The notes under the pieces are model-generated. The model saw only the letters and a program-made list of their open reading frames with translations. It was not told the origin of the DNA and did not search any database. From assembly GCF_900537085.1 (NCBI RefSeq), contig NZ_UNRE01000006.1, positions 62,001 to 126,000 of the forward strand: a stretch of DNA of 64,000 bases, given 5' to 3'. How positions within the stretch are numbered: the first letter of the stretch is position 1; every line of letters begins with the position of its first letter. This document shows positions 10,312 through 60,945 of this stretch, in pieces. The translations under genes and the position numbers were made by a program. Source of the stretch: Agarivorans sp. Alg241-V36. GTDB taxonomy: Bacteria; Pseudomonadota; Gammaproteobacteria; Enterobacterales; Celerinatantimonadaceae.

Positions 10312-10989
10312 ATGCGAACTGCCTGTTTGTTTATGCTAACACTCTGGTGTGCTGGGGTGAGTGCTGAGCCCAGTTTACGCATCTCTACCGCTGAAACCAT
10401 TGCTGCTTATCCTCAAGTACGTGATACGGTAACAGCTGCCTATTCAGAGCTTGGTTATACAGTGGAAATTGTTCCTATGCCTGCCAAGCGCTCTTTGCAT
10501 CATGCTAGAGATAATCACCATATTGATGCCGAGCTGGCCAGAACCCGCTACGCTAGCGCCTACCTCCCTAATCATATTTTAATCCCGGTAGCGGTGGGGC
10601 ATATCACCATTGCTGCTTTTGTTAAAAAAGATAAAGCAGTGGTGACGGATTGGCAAAGTTTGCAGCAATACCGGGTGGCCGGGGTGCGTGGCCATTTGTT
10701 TCTAGAAGACAAATTGCACAACCATAGTGATACTCAGTTTTTTAACTCAGCTCACCAAGCTCTCACTATGCTAGGCAGAGAGCGGGTAGATGTTGTGATA
10801 TTGCCGCTATCTATTGGAGAGTATGTGATTAAAAAGTATTGGCATAAGCAAATAACCACAGTGAGCCCCGCGCTCGACTACGTCCCGCTGTACCACTTCC
10901 TTCATAACAAACATCAAGATAAAGCTGAGCAGTTAGCCGAAGTATTACAAAAATTCACTACTGAGCCACTCGCTCAAAGGCAAGAGTAA
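10312..10989 (+). CDS. Periplasmic solute-binding-like protein (SBP_bac_3 type)
   Basis: A 225-residue secreted protein with signal peptide MRTACLFMLTLWCAGVSAEP. The mature part follows the small two-lobe pattern of extracytoplasmic amino-acid-type binding proteins: LRISTAETIAAYPQ, a central AGVRGHLFLED hinge, and VDVVILPLSIGEYVI. No permease or ATPase is adjacent, so it is an orphan and may feed a sensor rather than a transporter. The start ATG 10312 follows AAGGAAATAGC. Ligand unknown. Confidence 0.7.
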   Translation: MRTACLFMLTLWCAGVSAEPSLRISTAETIAAYPQVRDTVTAAYSELGYTVEIVPMPAKRSLHHARDNHHIDAELARTRYASAYLPNHILIPVAVGHITIAAFVKKDKAVVTDWQSLQQYRVAGVRGHLFLEDKLHNHSDTQFFNSAHQALTMLGRERVDVVILPLSIGEYVIKKYWHKQITTVSPALDYVPLYHFLHNKHQDKAEQLAEVLQKFTTEPLAQRQE

Positions 10990-11192
10990 TTAGCCAAGCT
11001 CTATTAGAAGTAATTGATTAATCGTTTATTTTATTCCTATAAAGGCTATTATTTGGCGAATAGTTAAGTGCTTTGTTGCGCGGCTTTTTAGTGTTTTTAC
11101 TAAGATGAACAAAATGTAATGTTGTGGCCACCTTGCGGTAAGGGCGGTTTTAGTAATCTGCTCATGTCGATTACACAACGAGGATTAGCCAA

Positions 11193-11756
11193 ATGAAACT
11201 TCCAATTAAATTATCAAAAAAAATCTGTGTTGCAGCTGCGGTTGCATTAACGTCTACCGCAGTAATGGCCGATGACGATGCACTGTCTGCACTAGCGATT
11301 AAAAAAGCAGGTTTTAGCCTAGAGCAAGCCATTGAAAAAGTGCATAACACATATCCAGGGCAAATAACCGAGCTAGAGTTAGATGATTACCGTGGCCAAG
11401 CTGTTTATGAAGTAGATGTAGTAAACCTAGCTCAAGAGCAAAAGCACAAACTAAAGCTGAGCCTAGCCGATGGCGAAATGTTGAAAAATGAAAGCAGTAA
11501 ATTAAGCATTCTAGGCGTTAGCAAGTTAGATGAAGATGAGCGTATAGCACTAGAGCAGTTAGCTGAATCAGAGTTGTCTTTGCAACAAACAGTAGCCATG
11601 CTGAACAACAAATACCAAGCGCAGGTTATTGAGTTCGAATTAGAAAACGAAAAAGGCATTACTTTTTATAAGTTCAAGCTACTGGGTGAGCAAGGCAAAC
11701 AGCGAGTGATTGTTGATGTAGCAAGTGGCGAAACCATTCCGGTACTAAAACACTAA
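11193..11756 (+). CDS. PepSY domain-containing secreted protein
   Basis: A 187-residue exported protein with signal peptide ending STAVMADD. It contains two PepSY-like units, residues about 35-100 (FSLEQAIEKVHNTYPGQITELELDD) and about 115-185 (LSLQQTVAMLNNKYQAQVIEFELEN; key residues Q, Y, I-x-E-x-E-L). PepSY proteins are periplasmic and often sit beside OmpR/QseC-type two-component systems, as here, where they may modulate the sensor. A perfect hairpin follows at 11767-11789 before the regulator gene, so expression of the three genes may be partly uncoupled. Confidence 0.85.
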   Translation: MKLPIKLSKKICVAAAVALTSTAVMADDDALSALAIKKAGFSLEQAIEKVHNTYPGQITELELDDYRGQAVYEVDVVNLAQEQKHKLKLSLADGEMLKNESSKLSILGVSKLDEDERIALEQLAESELSLQQTVAMLNNKYQAQVIEFELENEKGITFYKFKLLGEQGKQRVIVDVASGETIPVLKH

Positions 11757-14314: not shown

Positions 14315-15487
14315 TTAAAGCAGCTTTTCAGCACGGTGAAGAGAGCGGAAAACTGTCGCTTTTTGCCGATAAAGTAAAGCCAATGCTAAACCGCTAAAAG
14401 TAATGGCGAGCAGCCATAGATGAGTAAAATGAGCTTGTATTTCACTAAAGCTGGCACCCATTTGGTTGACCTTTAACATGGCTAAGACCATGGGTTTGGC
14501 CGGGATCAGGTCTGCCAAAATATTAATGGCTGGTGGAATAGAGCTCAACGGCCAGATAAAACCACACACAAACACCGTAGGTAATGAGGTCATTAAACCA
14601 ACAATGGTGGCGTAATCGCGTTTAGGTAATAACACCGCTATGCACTGAGCTAAGCCGGCAGTCGCGATTAAAAACGGTAGCAGCAACTGGCATATCTGAG
14701 AAACACTCGCCCAGTGATGCACTCCATAGAAATTAAGCACCACGCCAAAATAAAAGCTGCTCATTACACTGTACATAGCAGCAAAAATCACACTACGGCA
14801 TAGCACTAGCTGCCACGGGGCAGCATAGCGCAAGAGCTTAGCTTGTGAGCTAGAGGCTGCTGGCGCTGCGTGTAATCCGACTGCAATCAGTAGCGTTTGG
14901 TGCAAAATCACCACAAATACCGCCGGAATAACATAGTCCAAGTAACCTTGGTGGGCGTTAAAGGCCGCATTAGCACTTAGTTGGATTGGCGAATGCAAGG
15001 TGCTAGCAAGTGCTAGTGGGATGCCATCGGCTACCATTTTTGCCACTTTTACTTGAGCGGCTAAGGTGCCAGAGGTGCTGGCTAAACCTTGCACAATAGT
15101 GCCATAAACCAAAAAGTATGAGGCATCTCCTGCGTAAGACAGCGTCGGCGATCTACCCATTAATACATCGCGATAAAAATGCTCGGGGATAACTAACAAA
15201 CCGCCCACTTTCCTTTCGATTAACTGTTGTTGGGCTTGTTCTATACTGGCTACTTGGCTGGTCACTTGCAGCAAAGGGCTAGCGTCGACCATGCGAATTA
15301 ATTGCCGACTTAGTTGACTGCCATCGGCATTAATCACTGCAATGGGTTGCTGAAGGGGAGTTTGGTTTAAATAAGGTTGGGGGTACAAAAATGCGTAAAG
15401 TAGCAAACCGCCAAACACCGTTAATAGCAGGGCGCGATTGCCCATTATTCGGCGAAGTTCCAAGCGCATCACTAAGGCTGTTTTCAT
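14315..15487 (-). CDS. ABC-2 type transporter permease (YhhJ/YbhR-like), second copy
   Basis: A 390-residue inner-membrane permease. It has an N-terminal helix, a periplasmic loop of about 150 residues (INADGSQLSRQLIRMVDASP, shortened here; key stretch QLSRQLIRMVDA), then five or six helices from about residue 175 with the ABC-2 signature region LMTSLPTVFVCGFIWPLSSIP. It is last in a TolC-HlyD-permease-permease operon, overlapping the previous permease by 4 bases (ATGA). It probably forms the exporter channel with its partner. No ATPase gene is present nearby. Confidence 0.88.
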   Translation of the reverse strand: MKTALVMRLELRRIMGNRALLLTVFGGLLLYAFLYPQPYLNQTPLQQPIAVINADGSQLSRQLIRMVDASPLLQVTSQVASIEQAQQQLIERKVGGLLVIPEHFYRDVLMGRSPTLSYAGDASYFLVYGTIVQGLASTSGTLAAQVKVAKMVADGIPLALASTLHSPIQLSANAAFNAHQGYLDYVIPAVFVVILHQTLLIAVGLHAAPAASSSQAKLLRYAAPWQLVLCRSVIFAAMYSVMSSFYFGVVLNFYGVHHWASVSQICQLLLPFLIATAGLAQCIAVLLPKRDYATIVGLMTSLPTVFVCGFIWPLSSIPPAINILADLIPAKPMVLAMLKVNQMGASFSEIQAHFTHLWLLAITFSGLALALLYRQKATVFRSLHRAEKLL

Positions 15488-16665
15488 GTGTTATGCCCTA
15501 GTTGTGCTGGCTTAGCAAAGCGCATTTTTACCAAAAAGGCAGCACTAATAAAGGCCAATCCAAATACTAACAAAGCTGATAAGTTGGGCAGTGATTGCGC
15601 GACACTAGCCCCGTAGTTGGCTTGGGCTATTTGCACTTCTATATAATGGGTGATTGGGATGAGTTGACGCCAAAACTGAGCAAACCAAGGCATGTCGCTC
15701 ACCGGGAAGGTCACTCCCATAAAGGCAAAACTGGGCGCAGTAAGTGCGCCAGCAAAACTGAGTGCCCGGGCGACGTCTTGAAACAACAACATAAAGATCA
15801 ACGCTATCGCTTGTGAAGCTAGCACGCACAGCAGCAAAGCTAGCAATAATACACTCCAAGAACCTCGCATTGGCCAGTCAAAGCCGTGGAACATCAGGGT
15901 ACAAAGCAGTACGCCTTGCAGCCATAACAAGCCTCCAAAAAAGCTGAGTTTTATCGCCAGCTTTTGCCATGCTTGGCTTGCTAACCAATCTTTAAAGCTA
16001 TTGTTTTTTAGCTCTGCACCTAGCGCCAAAATCATTACCGCCATGATCAAAATTTGCCAAAAAGCTGGCAGGGCAGCAGACACAATAAACTGGGCGTAGT
16101 TGCTATTACCGTTATATAAGGCACTGATTTGATTGCGAATAGGAACCGCATTGCCCAAAGCTTGTAAGGTTTGGGTATTGCCATGGCTAAGCGCTTTTGC
16201 CACCGCAACTTTGGCACTAAAAGTACCATGAGCCTGCTGCAGCGCAGAGTTGACTTGCTTGCCTATTACCATGAATTGGCTGTTGTAGTAGGCAGCAACC
16301 GTAGGTGTTTGTGCCAACTTAGTGTGTTTTTCTAGATTGGCTGGAATAATCACTAACGCAGACACATCGCCAGTGCGTAGCAGCGATCGAGCTTGTGGTT
16401 CACTATAAACGCTGCGCACTTGCAGTGTTGGGCTGGCGTCATAGTGGCCAATTAGGCTGCGCGATAATTGGCTGTGGTCATGGTCGACTACCGCAATAGG
16501 GAGCTCGCGAGTTAAGCCCGACGAAAATACCCACCACACAGCTAAAAAAGCCAGTAGTGGCAACCAAGTGAGCATAGCCATTAACCAAGCGTTATCGCGC
16601 AGTAGTAAGCACTGTTGAATAAACAGTTGCCTTAAGCTGAGCGATGGCTCGCTGGTGGCATTCAT
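15484..16665 (-). CDS. ABC-2 type transporter permease, first copy
   Basis: A 393-residue paralogue of the next permease: N-terminal helix LTWLPLLAFLAVWWVFSS, a periplasmic region containing DHDHSQLSRSLIGHYDASP, then a multi-helix part ending with TAPSFAFMGVTFPVSDMP. The shared QLSR-x-LI-x-x-x-DASP element shows common descent with the second copy. I chose ATG 16665, one base after the HlyD stop; a longer frame opens at 16689 inside the HlyD gene. It likely heterodimerises with its neighbour in a YhiI/YhhJ-type efflux or secretion complex. Confidence 0.88.
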   Translation of the reverse strand: MNATSEPSLSLRQLFIQQCLLLRDNAWLMAMLTWLPLLAFLAVWWVFSSGLTRELPIAVVDHDHSQLSRSLIGHYDASPTLQVRSVYSEPQARSLLRTGDVSALVIIPANLEKHTKLAQTPTVAAYYNSQFMVIGKQVNSALQQAHGTFSAKVAVAKALSHGNTQTLQALGNAVPIRNQISALYNGNSNYAQFIVSAALPAFWQILIMAVMILALGAELKNNSFKDWLASQAWQKLAIKLSFFGGLLWLQGVLLCTLMFHGFDWPMRGSWSVLLLALLLCVLASQAIALIFMLLFQDVARALSFAGALTAPSFAFMGVTFPVSDMPWFAQFWRQLIPITHYIEVQIAQANYGASVAQSLPNLSALLVFGLAFISAAFLVKMRFAKPAQLGHNT

Positions 16666-53969: not shown

Positions 53970-54503
53970 TTATTGCAATAAAGGTTGTTCGATGGCTTGG
54001 TAGGCACTGGCAGAGTTAATTAAAGCATGGGCAGTAAGAGTAGGTACGCCATAAACTAGGGTTTCTACATCGTAATCTTGGTTTATTTTGTCGAGAAGAA
54101 TGGCGAAGTCACCATCGCCAGACAGTAGCACAACCATATCCACTTCGCGGGCAGCTTCTAATACGTCGATAGTAATACCCACATCCCAGTCGCCTTTGGC
54201 AGAGCCATCGCTGCGCTGAATAAAGGGTTTAAGTTTTACCTCAAAACCAATGTGCTTTAAGGCATCTTGAAATTTGAGTTGCTGATTATCGCCACGATCA
54301 ATCGCATAGGCGTAGGCTGCAACAACGCTGCCTTGCTCTTGCAATTGTTGCCATAACCTACGGTAGTTAAATTGTTTAGCGTAGGCCTCTCGGCAGGTGT
54401 AATAGATGTTTTGAACATCGGCGAATACGGCAATTTTTTTCACTAGGCGCTCTCTTAGCGGTTGGCTATGAAATGGCTGGCGGCTATTAGATGTTGCAAG
54501 CAT
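53970..54503 (-). CDS. NYN domain-containing protein (LabA/DUF88 type)
   Basis: A 177-residue PIN-like RNase-fold protein. N-terminal region KKIAVFADVQNIYYTCREAY with an acidic Asp, then KGDWDVGITIDVLEAAREVD and VVLLSGDGDFAILLDKI supply the four conserved acidic residues. It may be a ribonuclease. The first 20 residues of the frame may be untranslated if a later GTG near KKIAVF is used. Downstream lies the terminator of the large fusion gene. Confidence 0.88.
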   Translation of the reverse strand: MLATSNSRQPFHSQPLRERLVKKIAVFADVQNIYYTCREAYAKQFNYRRLWQQLQEQGSVVAAYAYAIDRGDNQQLKFQDALKHIGFEVKLKPFIQRSDGSAKGDWDVGITIDVLEAAREVDMVVLLSGDGDFAILLDKINQDYDVETLVYGVPTLTAHALINSASAYQAIEQPLLQ

Positions 54504-54520
54504 TATTACATGCTCCTATT

Positions 54521-54566
54521 AAAAAGCCCCGCTCTTGCTGATTTGGATAAGCAAAAACGGGGGCTA
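54521..54566 (-). terminator. Intrinsic terminator of the large fusion gene
   Basis: Read on the minus strand, AGCCCCCG / CGGGGCT arms with a partly paired loop (TTGC/GCAA) end in a run of five Ts. It lies 17 bases after the stop codon at 54583. Confidence 0.75.
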
Positions 54567-54582
54567 GCTTAAATTATGCTCA

Positions 54583-57500
54583 CTATAAAGAGCGTAAGAA
54601 CTTCAGTAATTGCTCTTGTTCAGAAGGTGTTGCCGTTTCATAGGCTTCTCGTGCTGCACTGGCTTCACCATTGTGTGCACGCACTGCTGCGTCTAAACCT
54701 TTGGCCCGACCATCGTGCATAAACAATACAGTGCTCTCGTCGGCTGGGCGAGATTCGCGCTGGGCGACGGCGTGGGCAGCATTTTTCTGGCCATTTACGA
54801 TCATGTCCATACTAAAGGCTGCTACGTCGGCGGTGCGACCTAAACCCCACAGTGGCGCGGTTCTAAACAAGCCGTCACCTAAATCGTGAGTTAGCAAGTC
54901 GGAGTATGGGCGAATCACATTCCCTTGTTGGGTTATCTGGGTTTCGGTATGACAGCTGCTACATTGCATGGCGTTGTTAAATAGTTCTTCACCGGCCAAA
55001 ACGTCTGCATCAAACAGTAAACTTTTATCTCGCTGCGGTACCCCAACAAATTGGCTGTAGTTGGTAAGGCGTTCCACCATGGTGGTGTCTGGATTGTTTA
55101 GGCCAAAGTCTGTTGCAAGGGCAAAGCGCACAGAATCTTCAATGTCGAGGCGATTACCTTCCCAGCCAAAGCCTGCTTTACCGGCGAAGCTAACTTGTTC
55201 TAGCAAACCTAGGCCAATCAGCGGCGGAGCAATGCGTGGTCCAACATTTGGCACGTCAAAGATCACTTGGCTGCGGCCATCGTTAATATGACAGCTTTCA
55301 CAGGTATTAAAGCCCGGATTTACGTCATCACCAATGTTTACCCGTAGGTCTTCATGTTGCTCTACAAAGTCACGAACCACTTTTAACGATGAAGTGTGTT
55401 CGTGCTGCATAAATGCTGCGGCACGTTCAAACTCATTGGCGCCAAAGGCATCGATACTGGCATCACCGCCTAACAAGGCGCGTGGATCGCTCGACTCTTT
55501 TGCCCAACCATGGCCTTTCACGTAGTAAAGCATTTGTGTGTAAAGGTTGAAGTCGGCACTGTCTTTGGGAATAACCCGCAATTCCCAATCGATGTTTTGC
55601 CCATAAGACAAGCCTTGACCGAGATTACAAACAGCGATGTTGCCACTGGCGTCGCTAGGCGCACATTGGTTGCTCAGTGAATGACGAGGGCTACCGCCAC
55701 CGGCACGCTCTTCGCTGCCTTCAATACCCGACCAGGTAATATCGATGGTTGAATCAAGTGTCGAATAAGACTCGTAGGTTAAGTCTACTTGGAATAACAA
55801 GTCTTTACCCGGCTCATCTTGTAACAAGCTAATGGTGAAACGAGGAACGTTTTTAAAGTGACCAGCACTTTGGTTTACTGGGTCGATACGCTCGTTAAAT
55901 ACGTTGTGGTCGTTAAAGAAGCCCTGCGGGTGCTGGAAGCGTAGCCAACCGGCAAAGTCTTCAGACTCACCGGTGTAGGCACCGTTTACACAACCCTTGT
56001 TAAGTCCATACAAGGCACTATCGTGATAAGCCAATGCATCACCCAGTTCATTGACTAATGGAGTGACTAAGCGCTCGAAGGACACGTAGTAAACGCTATT
56101 TCCGTCTAACCAATCGCTCGGTACGGTCATGGTTGCTCTGTCACCATTACGGGTGGCATCTACGCTACCAAGTAGTTTTAGGCGGCCTTCGCTGTTGTTG
56201 CGGAAGAATACCGTACGTGCATTGGTTCCCCATACTTTACTCGCAAGCTCAGAGCCTGCTTGAAACACAACTTGGTTGTTTTCGGTATAAATGTGATAGC
56301 CATAAATTGGCAACGTTGTGCCGTTGTACATATCTCCACAGGCTGGTACTACCGACTTCTCCCAAGTGTTGTCAGCAAAGCTTGCACTTGGTAGATCGGC
56401 GACCCACCACACGCTGTTAACACTGTGGCCAGTGGTGTCGCCAGGGTTGCTGTCGCCAGCGAAGTAATAAAGAGGTTCATTATTTAAAGTGAGTTGCAGG
56501 CTGCCATCCTCACGGGCGCTTACACCCAAGCCGCTAACCCCACTAGGCGCTAGAATATCGCTGGCCGAGTCAACAATAAATGGTGGCCAAGTGGTGGCAC
56601 AATTTCCGTTACATTGGCTAGGACCGGCATTATCTATATCAAAGGTATATAGGGTGAATCCCGGCTGACTCGCATCATTTCCGGCACTTAAGAAGCTACC
56701 TAATACAGGGTCGTTTGAGATGTTCACGGTGTCACTGATAACAGCTTCAACGTTTACATTTAAACTCGCTTCTACACCCGTAAAGCTATGGTCTGCGTTG
56801 GCTAGTTTGGCGACGGCGGTATGCAGACCAATTTCTAGATTGCTAAGGCTGATTGCAGTGTTTGAATATTGCGGCCCTAAGTCTTCTCCGTCCACAATCA
56901 AGTGGAAGTGTTGTTCGCCTTCGGCGATCGGCCAGTTGGCGAGCGCTGGGGTAATAACCCAGTCTTCACCTTGTTTAATAGTAGCTGGGCCACTTAAGTT
57001 AATGCTTGGCTGGCTGCCCGCTTGTACATCTACTGTTGCCGAGTCTTCAGCTGTTGCACCTTGGTTGTCGCTTGCTACTACACGAATTTGATAGTTGCCA
57101 GCAATCACATTGTTAATGGAGGTGGTGAATGGAGCGCTATTTACTTCGGCAATTAAGTTCTCTGTGGCATTGGGCGCTGTAGCATAAAAACGCACATTAC
57201 TAATGCTGCCATCGCTGTCTTCTGCTGACGCATTTAAAGTAAGGGTTTCGCCAGCGACCACAGCGCTTGGGCTAGTACTCAAACTTACACTGGGGGCTTG
57301 ATTACTCGGCGGGGTATCGCCCGCCAAAAATACTACGCCTGTTCGCTCCGCAATAAACTGGCTTAGGCTGTTGTCTTGAACTTTAAACTCTAAATCGTAG
57401 CTTTGGCCTAATTGAGCCCTTACATCACGATAGTAGATACCGTTGTCTAAGGTTGCTGCGCGACAATCACCATTAATACATAGATAGTTCCAGTTAGCCG

Positions 57501-59913
57501 TCCAGCCCTGATCGAGATGATAAACCCGCATGGTATTGTCATCGATGTAACTAATGCCGAACTCTTCGCTAGGTGCAACAGGTTGCTCCGGTTGTTCACT
57601 CGCCTTCACTGTAAAACTGGTACTATCACTTGCAGTAGCTGCTTGGTTATCGCTAGCCACTACGCGCAGTTGATAAGTACCTGCTAGCAAATTAGCTACG
57701 TTTGCTTGGTAAGGAGCGGCGGTGTCGCTGGCTAGTAACTGCTCGCTCGCGCCCGGTGCTGTTAAGTAAAAGTTCACCGAGTTAATAGAACCGTCGCTGT
57801 CGCTAGCAGTTGCAGTGATGCTAAGGTCATCTCCCTCGCTTAAGCTATTACCCACCGATGAAATAGCCACGCTGGGCAGCTGATTACTCGGCTGTTCACC
57901 ACCCCCAGTACCTTGTTCAAAGGCAAAAGTATCGTTAACGATATATTGGCTAAGCACCGCGTCTTGAACTTTAAACTCAATGGCGTAGCTTTGACCTAAC
58001 GTGGCGCTTACTTCACGATAGTATTCGCCATTGGCTAGAGTAGCGGGGCGACAATCACCATTAATACATAAGTAGTTCCAGTCAGCTGTCCAACCCTCAT
58101 CGAGGTGATAAACACGCATGGTGCTGTCGTCTACATAGCTAATACCGAAGTCTGGCTTAGGCCCTACCACTGGTGCGTCAGTTATCACCACGTTAACCGG
58201 CTCACTTAGGGTGGTTTCACCAGTCGTGTCAGTGGCTAGCGCTTGAATGCTACTTACATCGTTGCCATCAATTTGGCTGGCAAGAGTAAAAATATAAGGC
58301 GCATTGTTCGCTACCAAATCTGCTTGGTTTTGACCATTTACCAGCAAGCTAACTGAAGCAATGCCATCGCTGTCACTGGCATTCACTGTGACTTGTGTAG
58401 ATTGGCCACGGACAATTTCGATGCTGCCATTGGCTTGAATGCTTACTTGGGTATTGGCGCTAATTACTTCAAGTTTAACACTGTGATTGCTGCTAGAGCC
58501 CGCTGCATCAACCGCAGTAATGTTTAGGCTGTTGCTGCCTGCCTGCAAGTCGCTAGCGGCGATAGCCCAGCTGTAAACGGCATTGCCAAGGCTTTGGCTA
58601 GGGTAGGCGATACCGTTAATGCTTAGGTCAACTATATTCACCCCTTCTGGGCTATCGACAACGGTGCAGCTGTAGCTGAGATCTTGTCCTTCACTAATTG
58701 GGCTGCTTGGCTCGGTTGAACAATTTGAAAATACCGGCCCGTTGTTTTGTTCTCCGGCCAAGATAAAGCCATTTTCTGGGCTGACTAAATCAATAAAGTG
58801 CTGCTTTATTTCGGGGTTTTGCTGCACTCGCGAATCAGTATATTTAAAGAAGTTAGCGCCAGCTTGATCAGCTGCGCTCTCCCATTGTGGTTGGGCTGTC
58901 CAGTCTGCATTAATGTAATGCCAAGCTTTGTTTACCGTGCGCATGATTTCGGCATTTTTTTCGGTAAACCAATCTAGATTGTTGACGATGGTTACTGGGT
59001 TAGCACTGCCTTGGGCAACTTGCTGGCTGCTATTAAATGGCAGTTTGTAGTCGTACTGAACACCTAAATCACCATGCGGAGTAACTTCAGCGATAAACAG
59101 CGGCAAGCCTTCAATTTCGGCGATCTCGGCTTCTTCGTTTATGTCGCTATTAAATTGTGAAACTCCTACCCAATCTACATATTGCTTACCTGGCCAATAT
59201 CCTTGCTCGGTATTGCCTAAGGCTTGATTACTAGGGCGACCGGTGCCGTGGTAAGCATCCGATTGCCAAACGTGAGCAACGTTAGTTACTCCTTGCGCGT
59301 CTAAGAAACTACGAACATGTTTAAAGATACCCCGAAAATGTTCAAAGCTTAAACCGTGAGCATCGCCGTTAAATTCATAACAAGTTCGTAAAAAGAAACC
59401 GGTTTCATTGTGGAGTTTGAAAAAATCCGCTAACTCAATCAACAGATCGTCATGCGCGCCGTCGTTGTATAAGCTAGGGGCTTGAGCATTGCCAGGACAA
59501 AACATCCCCAGCGCTACTACTTCGGGCTGATAGTTCTCAATCACCCATTGCGCGTTTTGCACTCCGGAACCCCATTGGTTGCGGCGTTCGCTATCCGCAC
59601 AGCCTTGTGCTTGGTTGGAGTTGTAGTTGTCGAGGTTTTTAAGGCCATCTAAACCCTTAAAGCAGTAGTCGGTAACGTCTTCGGTCGCACCGCGGGTAAG
59701 GGTGGTGTACATAGTAAACCCATGGGGGCGGGGTAAGGATGGATCGGCCATGTATTGTTCAATAGATACTTGGTCCTGACCCAAGATAAATAAGCGTTCT
59801 CCATCAACGGGAATGGCGGGTTTTCCTGCGCCATACGCGTTGCTGGTTATTAAGCCAGCACCTGCAATTATTGCGTAGCGTAACAGGCTGAGCTGCGGTT
59901 TTTGTATGTCCAT
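54583..59913 (-). CDS. Secreted GH26-like / Ig / CBM-like / PF03640 / di-haem oxidoreductase fusion
   Basis: A 1776-residue secreted protein. Signal peptide 1-29; residues about 35-385 form a GH26-like barrel with plausible catalytic Glu-180 (YEFNGDAHG) and Glu-276 (FIAEVTPHG). Ig-like domains follow (about 390-485 and 488-580), then 71-residue module 1 (589-659), Ig-like (about 675-770), module 2 (785-855), Ig-like (about 870-965), a further beta domain (to about 1060), a PF03640-type repeat (about 1064-1174; TWPPFIV, LYYFAGD, WWVAD) and an unassigned stretch. The C-terminal about 280 residues resemble DUF1111 di-haem oxidoreductases, with CESCH (C1538) and CSSCH (C1651) and FMHDGRAKGLDAAV. 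A LacI-type operator lies upstream. Polysaccharide attack coupled to electron transfer is my inference. Confidence 0.8.
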   Translation of the reverse strand: MDIQKPQLSLLRYAIIAGAGLITSNAYGAGKPAIPVDGERLFILGQDQVSIEQYMADPSLPRPHGFTMYTTLTRGATEDVTDYCFKGLDGLKNLDNYNSNQAQGCADSERRNQWGSGVQNAQWVIENYQPEVVALGMFCPGNAQAPSLYNDGAHDDLLIELADFFKLHNETGFFLRTCYEFNGDAHGLSFEHFRGIFKHVRSFLDAQGVTNVAHVWQSDAYHGTGRPSNQALGNTEQGYWPGKQYVDWVGVSQFNSDINEEAEIAEIEGLPLFIAEVTPHGDLGVQYDYKLPFNSSQQVAQGSANPVTIVNNLDWFTEKNAEIMRTVNKAWHYINADWTAQPQWESAADQAGANFFKYTDSRVQQNPEIKQHFIDLVSPENGFILAGEQNNGPVFSNCSTEPSSPISEGQDLSYSCTVVDSPEGVNIVDLSINGIAYPSQSLGNAVYSWAIAASDLQAGSNSLNITAVDAAGSSSNHSVKLEVISANTQVSIQANGSIEIVRGQSTQVTVNASDSDGIASVSLLVNGQNQADLVANNAPYIFTLASQIDGNDVSSIQALATDTTGETTLSEPVNVVITDAPVVGPKPDFGISYVDDSTMRVYHLDEGWTADWNYLCINGDCRPATLANGEYYREVSATLGQSYAIEFKVQDAVLSQYIVNDTFAFEQGTGGGEQPSNQLPSVAISSVGNSLSEGDDLSITATASDSDGSINSVNFYLTAPGASEQLLASDTAAPYQANVANLLAGTYQLRVVASDNQAATASDSTSFTVKASEQPEQPVAPSEEFGISYIDDNTMRVYHLDQGWTANWNYLCINGDCRAATLDNGIYYRDVRAQLGQSYDLEFKVQDNSLSQFIAERTGVVFLAGDTPPSNQAPSVSLSTSPSAVVAGETLTLNASAEDSDGSISNVRFYATAPNATENLIAEVNSAPFTTSINNVIAGNYQIRVVASDNQGATAEDSATVDVQAGSQPSINLSGPATIKQGEDWVITPALANWPIAEGEQHFHLIVDGEDLGPQYSNTAISLSNLEIGLHTAVAKLANADHSFTGVEASLNVNVEAVISDTVNISNDPVLGSFLSAGNDASQPGFTLYTFDIDNAGPSQCNGNCATTWPPFIVDSASDILAPSGVSGLGVSAREDGSLQLTLNNEPLYYFAGDSNPGDTTGHSVNSVWWVADLPSASFADNTWEKSVVPACGDMYNGTTLPIYGYHIYTENNQVVFQAGSELASKVWGTNARTVFFRNNSEGRLKLLGSVDATRNGDRATMTVPSDWLDGNSVYYVSFERLVTPLVNELGDALAYHDSALYGLNKGCVNGAYTGESEDFAGWLRFQHPQGFFNDHNVFNERIDPVNQSAGHFKNVPRFTISLLQDEPGKDLLFQVDLTYESYSTLDSTIDITWSGIEGSEERAGGGSPRHSLSNQCAPSDASGNIAVCNLGQGLSYGQNIDWELRVIPKDSADFNLYTQMLYYVKGHGWAKESSDPRALLGGDASIDAFGANEFERAAAFMQHEHTSSLKVVRDFVEQHEDLRVNIGDDVNPGFNTCESCHINDGRSQVIFDVPNVGPRIAPPLIGLGLLEQVSFAGKAGFGWEGNRLDIEDSVRFALATDFGLNNPDTTMVERLTNYSQFVGVPQRDKSLLFDADVLAGEELFNNAMQCSSCHTETQITQQGNVIRPYSDLLTHDLGDGLFRTAPLWGLGRTADVAAFSMDMIVNGQKNAAHAVAQRESRPADESTVLFMHDGRAKGLDAAVRAHNGEASAAREAYETATPSEQEQLLKFLRSL
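57349..57561 (-). repeat. 71-residue module, copy 2
   Basis: Residues 785-855 of the large fusion protein. It shares 55 of 71 residues with copy 1 without any gap, including FGISY, TMRVYHLD, WNYLCINGDCR and GQSY. A Cys pair (LCINGDC) is conserved. The fold looks beta-rich and carbohydrate-binding-like, possibly near CBM56, but this is uncertain. Confidence 0.75.
57937..58149 (-). repeat. 71-residue module, copy 1
   Basis: Residues 589-659 of the large fusion protein, paralogous to copy 2 with 16 differences by my count. It is separated from copy 2 by an Ig-like linker, so the unit of duplication seems to be module plus Ig domain. Confidence 0.75.
59395..59406. promoter_or_regulatory. Intragenic LacI-family-like palindrome
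   Basis: GAAACCGGTTTC, perfect 12-bp palindrome inside the GH26-like coding part. It shares AACCGGTTTCA with the upstream site at 60190-60203 and lies about 796 bases from it, so it could be an auxiliary operator; it may also be chance in a coding region. Confidence 0.35.
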
Positions 59914-60318
59914 ATATCTCTCGCATTTAGTTTGGTTAGCACTGCCAACTTGGATTGAGAAGTTGACATATTGTTTGCTAGAAAGTTAGCTTTCTTATTA
60001 GTTTCAGTGACTTAATATATAATTCTAGATTTTTGTATCTATATAATTTTCTAGTGGTGGTCGCAAAATCACCAGTTAAGGTTAACTGTATGTGATATAG
60101 ATCGGTGTGATTGTTAATGGCCTGTGAGCGAGATCTTGCAAACGAGGGTTTTTAAATGGCAAAAACATAAGGTGATGTGAAAAAACGTTTGTAACCGGTT
60201 TCATTTTTGGGATAAAAAGTTGTAAATATGACCTTTGTTAGCTTTGTTGGGAAAGTGGTGGCTCTGCATGGCGGCTCTAAGCGATAGCCAACGGCCACCA
60301 TGTTTAGCAAAAGTGAGG
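59914..60318. other. Upstream region of the large fusion gene
   Basis: AT-rich non-coding DNA between two minus-strand genes. It holds the LacI-type operator at 60190-60203 and the promoter of the fusion gene; the 3' end of the gene at 60319 has no clear T-run terminator. No additional ORF is supported. Confidence 0.5.
60190..60203. promoter_or_regulatory. LacI-family-like operator upstream of the fusion gene
   Basis: TGTAACCGGTTTCA, near-perfect dyad around a central CG (one mismatch pair). Sugar-responsive LacI-family repressors of gammaproteobacteria use sites of this type. It lies 277 bases upstream of the start codon, so it implies a fairly long leader or a distant promoter. Confidence 0.6.
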
Positions 60319-60945
60319 TTATTTTTTCTCTATCGCAAATTCATCAACTCGAACTTCAAGTTCTTTATCTAAGCTGAGCTCTTGGCTAGTGTTAACTTCT
60401 AACAAACTAAAGATTTCTACTTGGGTATTGTTGCCAGTATTAAAATCAATAGACACTTGTTTAAAGCACTTTTTGTTTTCACCTTGAGGAGCTTGAGCCA
60501 AGTCTTTTACGTGAACTTTGGTATCTGCCAGCACTGTACCTGCCAATGGCGCATTGGTGATCACTTCGCGAACGCCAAAGTGTAATTGGGTTGGAGAATT
60601 AGCGCCTTTTTTATCACAGTAGTAAAGCGAGTAGCTCATGTCGGTATTGGCAGGTAAACCACTAACTACTTGGCTTAAACCCGGTTTAGAATTGAAATCG
60701 TGATTTGAAACATCTCGTTTAAAGCGAAAGCGTGAAGAGCCTACTTCGCCAAAAGCACTATCTTTAGAACTACCCACATCGCCTAAGCCGCCGCTAGAAT
60801 CTTCATGAGACAACCAAACAGCACTTTTTCCTTTGTCTGCACGGTACTCTGTTAATTGATGATCTTGAACGTAAGCATGAGCAGAAAATGCTAAACAGGC
60901 GGTGAACATGGTGGCACTTAAAGCTAGGTTTTTTTGAATGTGCAT
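60319..60945 (-). CDS. Secreted beta-rich protein, possibly carbohydrate-binding
   Basis: A 208-residue secreted protein with signal peptide ending AFSAHAY. The mature part looks like a CBM- or lectin-type beta-sandwich: SSRFRFKRDVSNHD, SGLPANTDMSYSLYYCDKKG, then FGVREV, and a conserved Cys pair (YYCDKKG, KKCFKQ). Similar segments occur, as I remember, in accessory domains of alginate lyases, but I cannot confirm this. It lies just upstream of the fusion gene on the same strand, and may act with it. Confidence 0.65.
   Translation of the reverse strand: MHIQKNLALSATMFTACLAFSAHAYVQDHQLTEYRADKGKSAVWLSHEDSSGGLGDVGSSKDSAFGEVGSSRFRFKRDVSNHDFNSKPGLSQVVSGLPANTDMSYSLYYCDKKGANSPTQLHFGVREVITNAPLAGTVLADTKVHVKDLAQAPQGENKKCFKQVSIDFNTGNNTQVEIFSLLEVNTSQELSLDKELEVRVDEFAIEKK

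Follow-up and report, generated by a model that had tools for sequence, protein, structure and literature searches.

Among the enzymes described for the degradation of beta-1,3-xylan, the closest counterpart of the protein considered here is Xyn65 of Gilvimarinus xylanilyticus, published in 2022 with the architecture GH26-CBM31-CBM6-Big-DHOR, i.e., with a glycoside hydrolase domain, carbohydrate-binding modules (CBMs), an Ig-like part and a di-haem oxidoreductase (DHOR) domain in one chain (PMC9638140). Xyn65 is a characterised, strict 1,3-xylanase, and 82.3% of the spectra assigned to 1,3-xylanases in the secretome on 1,3-xylan belong to it; its authors state that DHOR was previously not found in glycoside hydrolases and propose for this domain either a new activity or a binding/stabilising role (PMC9638140). 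Here we analyze a gene located on the minus strand, at positions 54583-59913, of a 64,000-nucleotide stretch of the 4.7 Mb genome of Agarivorans sp. Alg241-V36 (the whole stretch is referred to as the window), whose product, P0001, likewise combines GH26, CBM31, Big and DHOR in a single chain. This kind of protein is already known from one enzyme, Xyn65, and P0001 is a separately joined variant of it; the novelty lies in the wider family, whose di-haem module is linked to 1,3-xylan and requires no lytic polysaccharide monooxygenase (LPMO) of family AA10. The explanation that we favor, and consider reasonably probable as a whole, is a 1,3-xylanase combined with a xylan-anchored auxiliary di-haem oxidoreductase. 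A first-pass annotation of the window, made from the sequence, knew of no described enzyme with this exact combination of parts, a view contradicted by Xyn65, though that enzyme, as published, contains CBM6 and no PF03640.

P0001 (1776 amino acids, aa) is encoded by a single unbroken open reading frame (ORF), the longest in the window's list, and its parts follow in the order signal peptide, GH26, Ig-like, CBM31, Ig, CBM31, Ig, two PF03640 repeats, a beta-sandwich region and a short DHOR, the N-terminus having by eye the look of a Sec signal peptide. Pfam searches yielded AlcCBM31 (PF11606, 3.8e-54, 181.3 bits against a cut-off of 25, two stretches), Big_7 (1.2e-22, four stretches) and Lipoprotein_15 (PF03640, 4.1e-20, two stretches), the latter two also above cut-off, as well as DHOR (PF06537, 1.5e-13, 50.5 bits against a cut-off of 22), the DHOR match spanning only profile positions 341-499 of 499, so that P0001 does not carry a full-length DHOR; CBM6 was not found in P0001 (Pfam, E <= 1). 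The ORF, the Pfam matches and a phmmer match of the GH26 domain to the structure 2ddx bear out the first-pass description of a secreted multidomain chain with GH26, PF03640 and a di-haem DHOR, and E180, E276, C1538 (CESCH) and C1651 (CSSCH) are the residues it had placed there. Homologues with the same arrangement, whose existence it had left to be checked, were found: an ortholog 90% identical over its full length in one other species of the genus (G370), and two more genomes, Neiella marina (L029) and G454 (L164), with the same set and order of main parts. Such an architecture is therefore no chance product. The features of the gene are as follows.

54583-59913, minus strand: whole gene, GH26-CBM31x2-PF03640x2-DHOR, 1776 aa (ORF list and Pfam)
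59830-59913, minus strand: putative Sec signal peptide, residues ~1-28 (read from the sequence)
58759-59817, minus strand: GH26 domain, residues ~33-385 (phmmer to 2ddx, 5.9e-14; aligned with nine further GH26 domains)
59374-59376, minus strand: E180, candidate catalytic Glu, opposite the Glu of the 2ddx YEvdG motif (invariant in 10 of 10 rows)
59086-59088, minus strand: E276, candidate catalytic Glu, opposite the Glu of the 2ddx lnEstP motif (invariant in 10 of 10 rows)
58168-58716, minus strand: Ig-like region, probably two modules, residues ~400-582 (Big_7 stretches; bounds by eye)
57913-58161, minus strand: first CBM31, residues 585-667 (PF11606; phmmer to 2cov, 1.2e-17)
57598-57888, minus strand: Ig-like Big_7 module, residues ~676-772 (Pfam)
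57328-57576, minus strand: second CBM31, residues ~780-862 (second PF11606 stretch; resembles the CBM31 of the canonical xylanase)
56746-57303, minus strand: Ig-like region, residues ~871-1056 (Pfam)
56374-56745, minus strand: two PF03640 (Lipoprotein_15) repeats, residues ~1057-1180 (Pfam)
55414-56358, minus strand: region of ~315 aa, probably two beta-sandwich (Fn3/Ig-like) domains, residues 1186-1500 (conservation in the redox family; model of a relative, Z < 6, tentative)
54586-55413, minus strand: short DHOR with predicted di-haem peroxidase/MauG fold, residues ~1501-1776 (PF06537; model of a relative, Z 12.4-16.8)
55288-55302, minus strand: CESCH, haem 1 site, C1538-H1542 (CxxCH invariant in 24 rows)
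54949-54963, minus strand: CSSCH, haem 2 site, C1651-H1655 (113 residues past the first CxxCH)
55162-55164, minus strand: W1584, opposite the Trp of the FWDG motif in solved di-haem peroxidases (alignments)
54673-54675, minus strand: H1747, invariant, opposite the haem 2 Met of solved peroxidases (alignments)

The GH26 domain alone matches 2ddx (beta-1,3-xylanase XYL4) over residues ~115-373, and E180 and E276 stand opposite the two motif glutamates of 2ddx, both being invariant in ten aligned GH26 domains, so that the GH26 fold suggested at first is supported by homology rather than by a model. Among the profile matches anticipated in the first-pass annotation, PF03640 and PF06537 were recovered, and GH26 gave no Pfam match in P0001 at E <= 1, its support coming from phmmer instead; since a protein of canonical 1,3-xylanase type encoded in this genome is likewise without a Pfam GH26 match (E <= 0.01), this was not counted against GH26. 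The repeated modules of 71 residues, earlier described as CBM-like, could be identified as CBM31, and the CBM31 structure 2cov comes from a beta-1,3-xylanase. With a GH26 domain nearest to a solved beta-1,3-xylanase and with CBM31 modules in the same chain, the predicted substrate is beta-1,3-xylan, a triple-helical polysaccharide; this prediction, which sharpens the marine polysaccharide target named initially, is in our view highly probable.

As for the redox part, 24 aligned rows show no variation in the two CxxCH motifs, in one Trp and in several His residues (including the candidate haem 2 ligand). Structure prediction, recommended in the first-pass annotation, gave a poor model of P0001's own segment (pLDDT 57.4), and the beta-sandwich matches listed by a fold search with this model were set aside for the haem part; it succeeded for a Flammeovirga relative (L034, 582 aa; pLDDT 85.6, pTM 0.89), whose C-terminal part matched hydrazine synthase gamma (Z 16.8, 208 residues, 2.5 A), MauG (Z 15.2-15.5) and di-haem peroxidases (Z 12.4-15.3), the part before DHOR being a beta-sandwich with tentative Fn3-like matches below Z 6. 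Modelled in this way, the redox module forms a branch of DHORs that have a short CxxCH spacing and a predicted di-haem peroxidase/MauG fold. When the PDB was searched with profiles, the chains listed included di-haem peroxidases and hydrazine synthase, and none was labelled X183 or X132, the sequences of those two domains not having been compared directly.

Alignments to the peroxidases 1iqc, 3o5c and 1eb7, low in score yet mutually consistent, place W1584 opposite the Trp of the WDG motif (Trp94 of the Pseudomonas aeruginosa cytochrome c peroxidase, CcP), so that the Trp is kept, and H1747 opposite the haem 2 Met (the ligand Met275 of the same enzyme), a His shared by ordinary DHORs. The Glu of the peroxidase EM motif falls opposite a non-conserved position, with an invariant Asp two positions earlier, an Ala stands opposite Pro108, and an equivalent of Gln104 is present in most rows and lost in P0001 and L029; residues are numbered as in CcP, where the EM-motif Glu is Glu114 and both Gln104 and Glu114 are catalytic. 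Thus, the CxxCH pair and the inter-haem Trp of classical CcP/MauG proteins are found, and their catalytic Gln/Glu and haem 2 Met are not. A His at the Met275 position combined with a non-conserved EM-motif Glu would imply bis-His ligation of haem 2 and, at haem 1, the loss of the acid typical of classical peroxidases, from which we infer an oxidoreductase or carrier rather than a textbook peroxidase. Haem loading of P0001 is predicted, and we hold it to be very likely.

To delineate the family, the DHOR part was scanned against the genomes of 84,980 species; the best 80 matches correspond to 79 loci, to which the following counts refer, and hosts outside these carry no meaning as absences. A region of 250-315 aa preceding DHOR is present in all of the first 20 loci (L029-L048, hereafter module loci) and in none of the remaining 59, while CBM31 was found at 18/20 module loci vs. 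1/59 other DHOR loci and PF03640 at 16/20 vs. 1/59. The spacing of the two CxxCH motifs in the module is 112-115 residues (113 in P0001, and 116 in one G454 protein), as compared with 224-267 in the 16 ordinary DHORs measured. CBM31 together with the sandwich-DHOR occurs in Neiella, Aquimarina, Flammeovirga, Aliagarivorans, Gynuella and Steroidobacter, and further in Cellvibrio (in two frames of a draft), Gilvimarinus and Marinibactrum. Overall, CBM31 proteins in Gammaproteobacteria and Bacteroidota carry this short-spaced DHOR branch.

Several additional arrangements were observed around this family. A third type, CBM31-Big-DHOR (763-773 aa, spacing 135; L027:5982-8273 and L050:8774-11095, the latter equal to L167:4486-6807), occurs in two Aliagarivorans genomes and forms a separate branch without the sandwich region. 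In Thalassomonas (L061:7482-10448), four PF03640 stretches are joined to an ordinary long-spaced DHOR with no CBM31, and PF03640 may accordingly have a redox-related role of its own. Two redox genes are split over two frames in draft genomes, L025:6243-9818 (G377, with one in-frame TAG) and L040:7485-11161 (Cellvibrio OA-2007). In Aquimarina (after 2/3 redox genes) and in Flammeovirga, the redox gene is followed by a gene for a secreted protein of 146-155 aa with the motif CPPCRP...C..C, at the following positions.

L030:11026-11466 and 15049-15501; L032-L035:~11040-11505; L045-L048:~10985-11445: CPPCRP...C..C protein genes

A T9SS sorting domain (Por_Secre_tail) was detected in two of the three CPPCRP proteins scanned and in none of the scanned redox proteins (L030, L032, L045); the small protein is perhaps a surface anchor or a partner in trans.

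The association of the module with GH26 and CBM31 is also seen at the level of whole genomes. In a sample of 394 genomes of the order, which replaced an earlier class-wide search (E 1e-30, two candidates scored per genome; 1/369 genomes), CBM31 is present in six genomes (E <= 1e-5), and these six are also the ones in which the module is matched over its full length, at 13 places with E <= 3.9e-156; in the other 388, no full-length module is found among the matches listed (at most three candidates scored per genome). Altogether 110/394 genomes match at 1e-20, and the listed matches outside the six start at model position 394 or later, i.e., in the ordinary DHOR part. GH26 of this clade is present in 7/394 genomes, namely the six and G445. 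Among the 79 loci, GH26 is fused to the module or lies within 10 kb of it at 9/20 module loci vs. 0/59 other DHOR loci, a count that includes near-copies (three Flammeovirga) and two loci of one Neiella contig, amounts to 6/10 by host group, and is affected by some contigs ending within the 10 kb neighborhood.

A second locus of the same genome, on contig 5, provides the separate counterpart of the fusion: two CBM31-Big-PF03640-DHOR proteins of 1212 and 1230 aa are encoded directly upstream of a GH26 protein with two CBM31 modules, the canonical 1,3-xylanase type. The parts that are split at this locus are joined in P0001. The redox-redox-xylanase triad recurs in G377 and G379, the first redox gene being broken in the G377 draft and having a whole counterpart in G379. 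The fused GH26-module protein exists in one type comprising P0001, its G370 ortholog, L029 and G454 L164, and in other proteins, namely L042 (a 1673-aa protein of Gilvimarinus strain HB14 with the Xyn65 architecture, taken to be Xyn65), Neiella L039:693-5522 and G454 L165:7609-12099. Two trees were built, one of redox modules (39 rows) and one of GH26 domains (14 rows), with five fused rows in each and the G454 fusions L164 and L165 in neither. On both, the fused state needs three changes, as forced by their starred branches; long branches meet in the GH26 tree, and the outgroup chosen for the redox tree is not one side of a branch. An AU test, which addresses a single GH26 clade only, rejects a grouping of the five fused GH26s as one clade (p 2e-58). 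A shared origin of P0001 and Xyn65 as fused chains is accordingly not upheld, the GH26 clade being rejected and the redox modules standing on separate branches. The three changes could also be one gain and two losses, or swaps of GH26 in an old fusion. The relatives suggest that the GH26-module pairing is widespread and has been joined more than once.

Some further genes accompany these loci. A GH43 gene and a TonB receptor gene are neighbors of the second G454 fusion, GH43 is also present in the Cellvibrio locus, and a protein with a GH120 insertion-domain match in the Gilvimarinus locus; these neighbors fit a xylan locus. In the window's genome, a PL7-type alginate lyase (PF08787, L010:9399-10328) is encoded ~3 kb off the 1,3-xylanase triad, and G379 contains an extra GH26-like protein of 460 aa with one CBM31 (L166:4389-5771), 22-23% identical to other GH26s.

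Within the genus, the gene, here taken with its flanks (54503-60319), is a clean presence/absence cargo. Its neighbors are a 177-aa gene on one side and, on the other, a 208-aa gene whose product is probably secreted. The five same-genus genomes other than G370 gave no match at 1e-30, and in G369, G371, G372 and G373 the same neighbors surround an empty site of 211-394 bases (4/4 sites fetched); G374, with no match for the 208-aa protein, was left out of this comparison. Between P0001 and its G370 ortholog, dN is 0.013 in GH26, 0.033 in the sandwich region and 0.032 in DHOR, as compared with 0.06-0.08 in CBM31, 0.085 in PF03640 and 0.09-0.14 in the linkers, for a comparison of two same-genus copies with dS close to saturation. 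The sandwich and DHOR parts are better conserved than the CBMs, and PF03640 is not. The 208-aa neighbor (60319-60945) has no Pfam match and is a free-standing version of the near-C-terminal domain of a beta-helix-like protein (896-aa frame) elsewhere in the genome (L184), the lyase likeness of which was judged by eye.

In the explanation that we propose, P0001 would be a secreted endo-beta-1,3-xylanase (GH26) that carries in the same chain an auxiliary module, a di-haem c-type oxidoreductase made up of the PF03640 pair, the beta-sandwich region and the short DHOR. The two CBM31 modules would hold it on the insoluble substrate, GH26 would cut the beta-1,3-xylan of algal walls, and the haem module, brought to the same surface, would perform an electron-transfer or oxidative step aiding the attack on the solid polymer, independently of LPMO. 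That the redox module is functionally coupled to the use of 1,3-xylan appears quite likely. A Neiella isolate is reported to grow on 1,3-xylan (PMC8517272), which speaks for the proposed explanation. As to the reaction itself, it can be put forward only tentatively that the polysaccharide or its ends are oxidised, with O2, H2O2 or an unknown acceptor. A bolder and rather doubtful version would make the CBM31-anchored short DHOR the founding member of a class of LPMO-independent polysaccharide-active oxidoreductases, itself oxidising or loosening crystalline beta-1,3-xylan for GH26; if true, the di-haem module would fill for beta-1,3-xylan the place that LPMOs have in cellulose and chitin.

Among other explanations, the module could be an electron donor to an LPMO, a copper monooxygenase cutting polysaccharide, as proposed for Cbp2D/E; the first-pass annotation had similarly supposed electron exchange with an oxidative partner, whose usual form would be an AA10 LPMO. 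The X183 cytochrome of Cbp2D can reportedly start LPMO reduction (PMC8981238, PMC12542752), and AA10 is present in six of 19 carrier entries: the window's genome, G370, Cellvibrio, Gilvimarinus and two Phycisphaerae, the last two being without CBM31. These 19 entries represent 18 genomes, since G437 and the L029 genome share their contig coordinates and count as a single Neiella genome, and 13 of the entries (12/18 genomes) gave no AA10 match in a search confined to this LPMO family; they comprise G377, G379, G437 and G454 (98-100% complete) and, by contigs, Neiella (= G437), Aquimarina, four Flammeovirga, Gynuella, Steroidobacter and Marinibactrum. With no AA10 match in most carriers, supplying AA10 with electrons cannot be what the family does in general, and this general role was rejected on the AA10 census, with its restriction to AA10 and its reliance on draft genomes. 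Furthermore, the AA10 of the window's genome carries CBM2 and lies on another contig, and X183 domains of Teredinibacter turnerae reportedly gave an LPMO no electrons under the conditions tested (PMC10916295), leaving LPMO donation very improbable. An extracellular electron carrier between cell, oxygen and surface proteins, leaving the polysaccharide untouched and merely parked by CBM31, would agree with the predicted bis-His haem 2 (invariant His at the Met275 position) and with the long-distance electron delivery suggested for CBM-cytochromes in the literature (PMC10916295); a general carrier, however, needs neither repeated covalent joining to a hydrolase nor a tie to CBM31, and we consider this reading rather unlikely.

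A di-haem cytochrome c peroxidase clearing H2O2 from the algal surface would be in line with the fold of the relative, which matches peroxidases and MauG (Z 12.4-15.5 over ~203-224 residues), and with the conserved Trp of the WDG motif. This H2O2 reductase reading is nonetheless unlikely: the EM-motif Glu is not conserved, Pro108 is replaced by Ala, Gln104 is lost in P0001 and L029, and detoxification gives no reason for a tie to one sugar. The second hypothesis of the Xyn65 authors would make the DHOR part redox-dead, a structural or xylan-binding module, and recombinant Xyn65 from ordinary Escherichia coli expression was stable enough for activity; the invariance in 24 rows of both CxxCH motifs, the candidate haem 2 His and the Trp, together with the low dN in the module, makes this improbable.

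A number of observations nevertheless weigh against a xylan-anchored auxiliary oxidoreductase. Two Phycisphaerae relatives carry the module without a CBM31 match, G445 has GH26 without CBM31 or the full module, and the six co-occurring genomes belong to four genera in two families and are therefore not six independent events; the single AA10 of the window's genome belongs here as well. The GH26 domain is divergent, sharing 30% identity with the canonical-type GH26 found elsewhere in the genome and 26% with the GH26 of Xyn65, so that the substrate of P0001 is predicted rather than known; a published cut-off for 1,3-xylanase is >35% identity to a characterised enzyme (PMC12125979), the 30% being relative to the canonical-type GH26 of the same genome and not to Xyn26A/B. 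The DHOR of P0001, besides its poor model, is without the Gln104-equivalent and has HHLFHG down to a single His, H1520. Xyn65, in the described experiments, is active when made in E. coli BL21(DE3) from pET22b with its own signal peptide removed (PMC9638140), and haem may thus be dispensable for hydrolysis. Finally, two GH26 enzymes serve Vibrio sp. EA2 in its use of 1,3-xylan, and the paper on this strain names no cytochrome, oxidoreductase or LPMO (PMC12125979). The recently described pathway of this Vibrio is hydrolytic, and beta-1,3-xylan is a little-studied algal carbon pool. Because the module occurs in genomes without an AA10 match, it would allow the role of CBM-bearing extracellular cytochromes to be tested without LPMO as a confounder.

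In comparison with known systems, the open-access literature yielded no description of the wider CBM31-DHOR family and no further DHOR-xylanase besides Xyn65. Xyl4 and other GH26-CBM31 beta-1,3-xylanases (2ddx, 2cov) share with P0001 the GH26 homology, the two motif glutamates and CBM31, and differ in having no redox part in the architectures of the published Table 3 (PMC9638140). Cbp2D/Cbp2E of Cellvibrio and TERTU_2913/TERTU_3803 of Teredinibacter, the role of which is unsettled in the literature (PMC10916295, PMC8981238, PMC12542752), are likewise secreted c-type cytochromes directed to one insoluble polysaccharide, most of them with CBMs; in contrast to P0001, they are described with CBM2/CBM10, with X183 and X132 (one CxxCH each), for cellulose and with no glycoside hydrolase in the chain. 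The fold and the two haem sites are shared with di-haem cytochrome c peroxidases, MauG and hydrazine synthase gamma, from which P0001 is distinguished by a His in place of the peroxidases' haem 2 Met, a non-conserved catalytic Glu, and the added CBM and beta-sandwich parts. Xyn65 remains the nearest system, having a secreted GH26, CBM31, Ig-like parts and a C-terminal DHOR, with the same sandwich-DHOR module and a CxxCH spacing of 113 in L042; it differs by the presence of CBM6, one CBM31 instead of two, no PF03640 match, a GH26 26% identical to that of P0001 and far off on the GH26 tree, and a DHOR on another branch.

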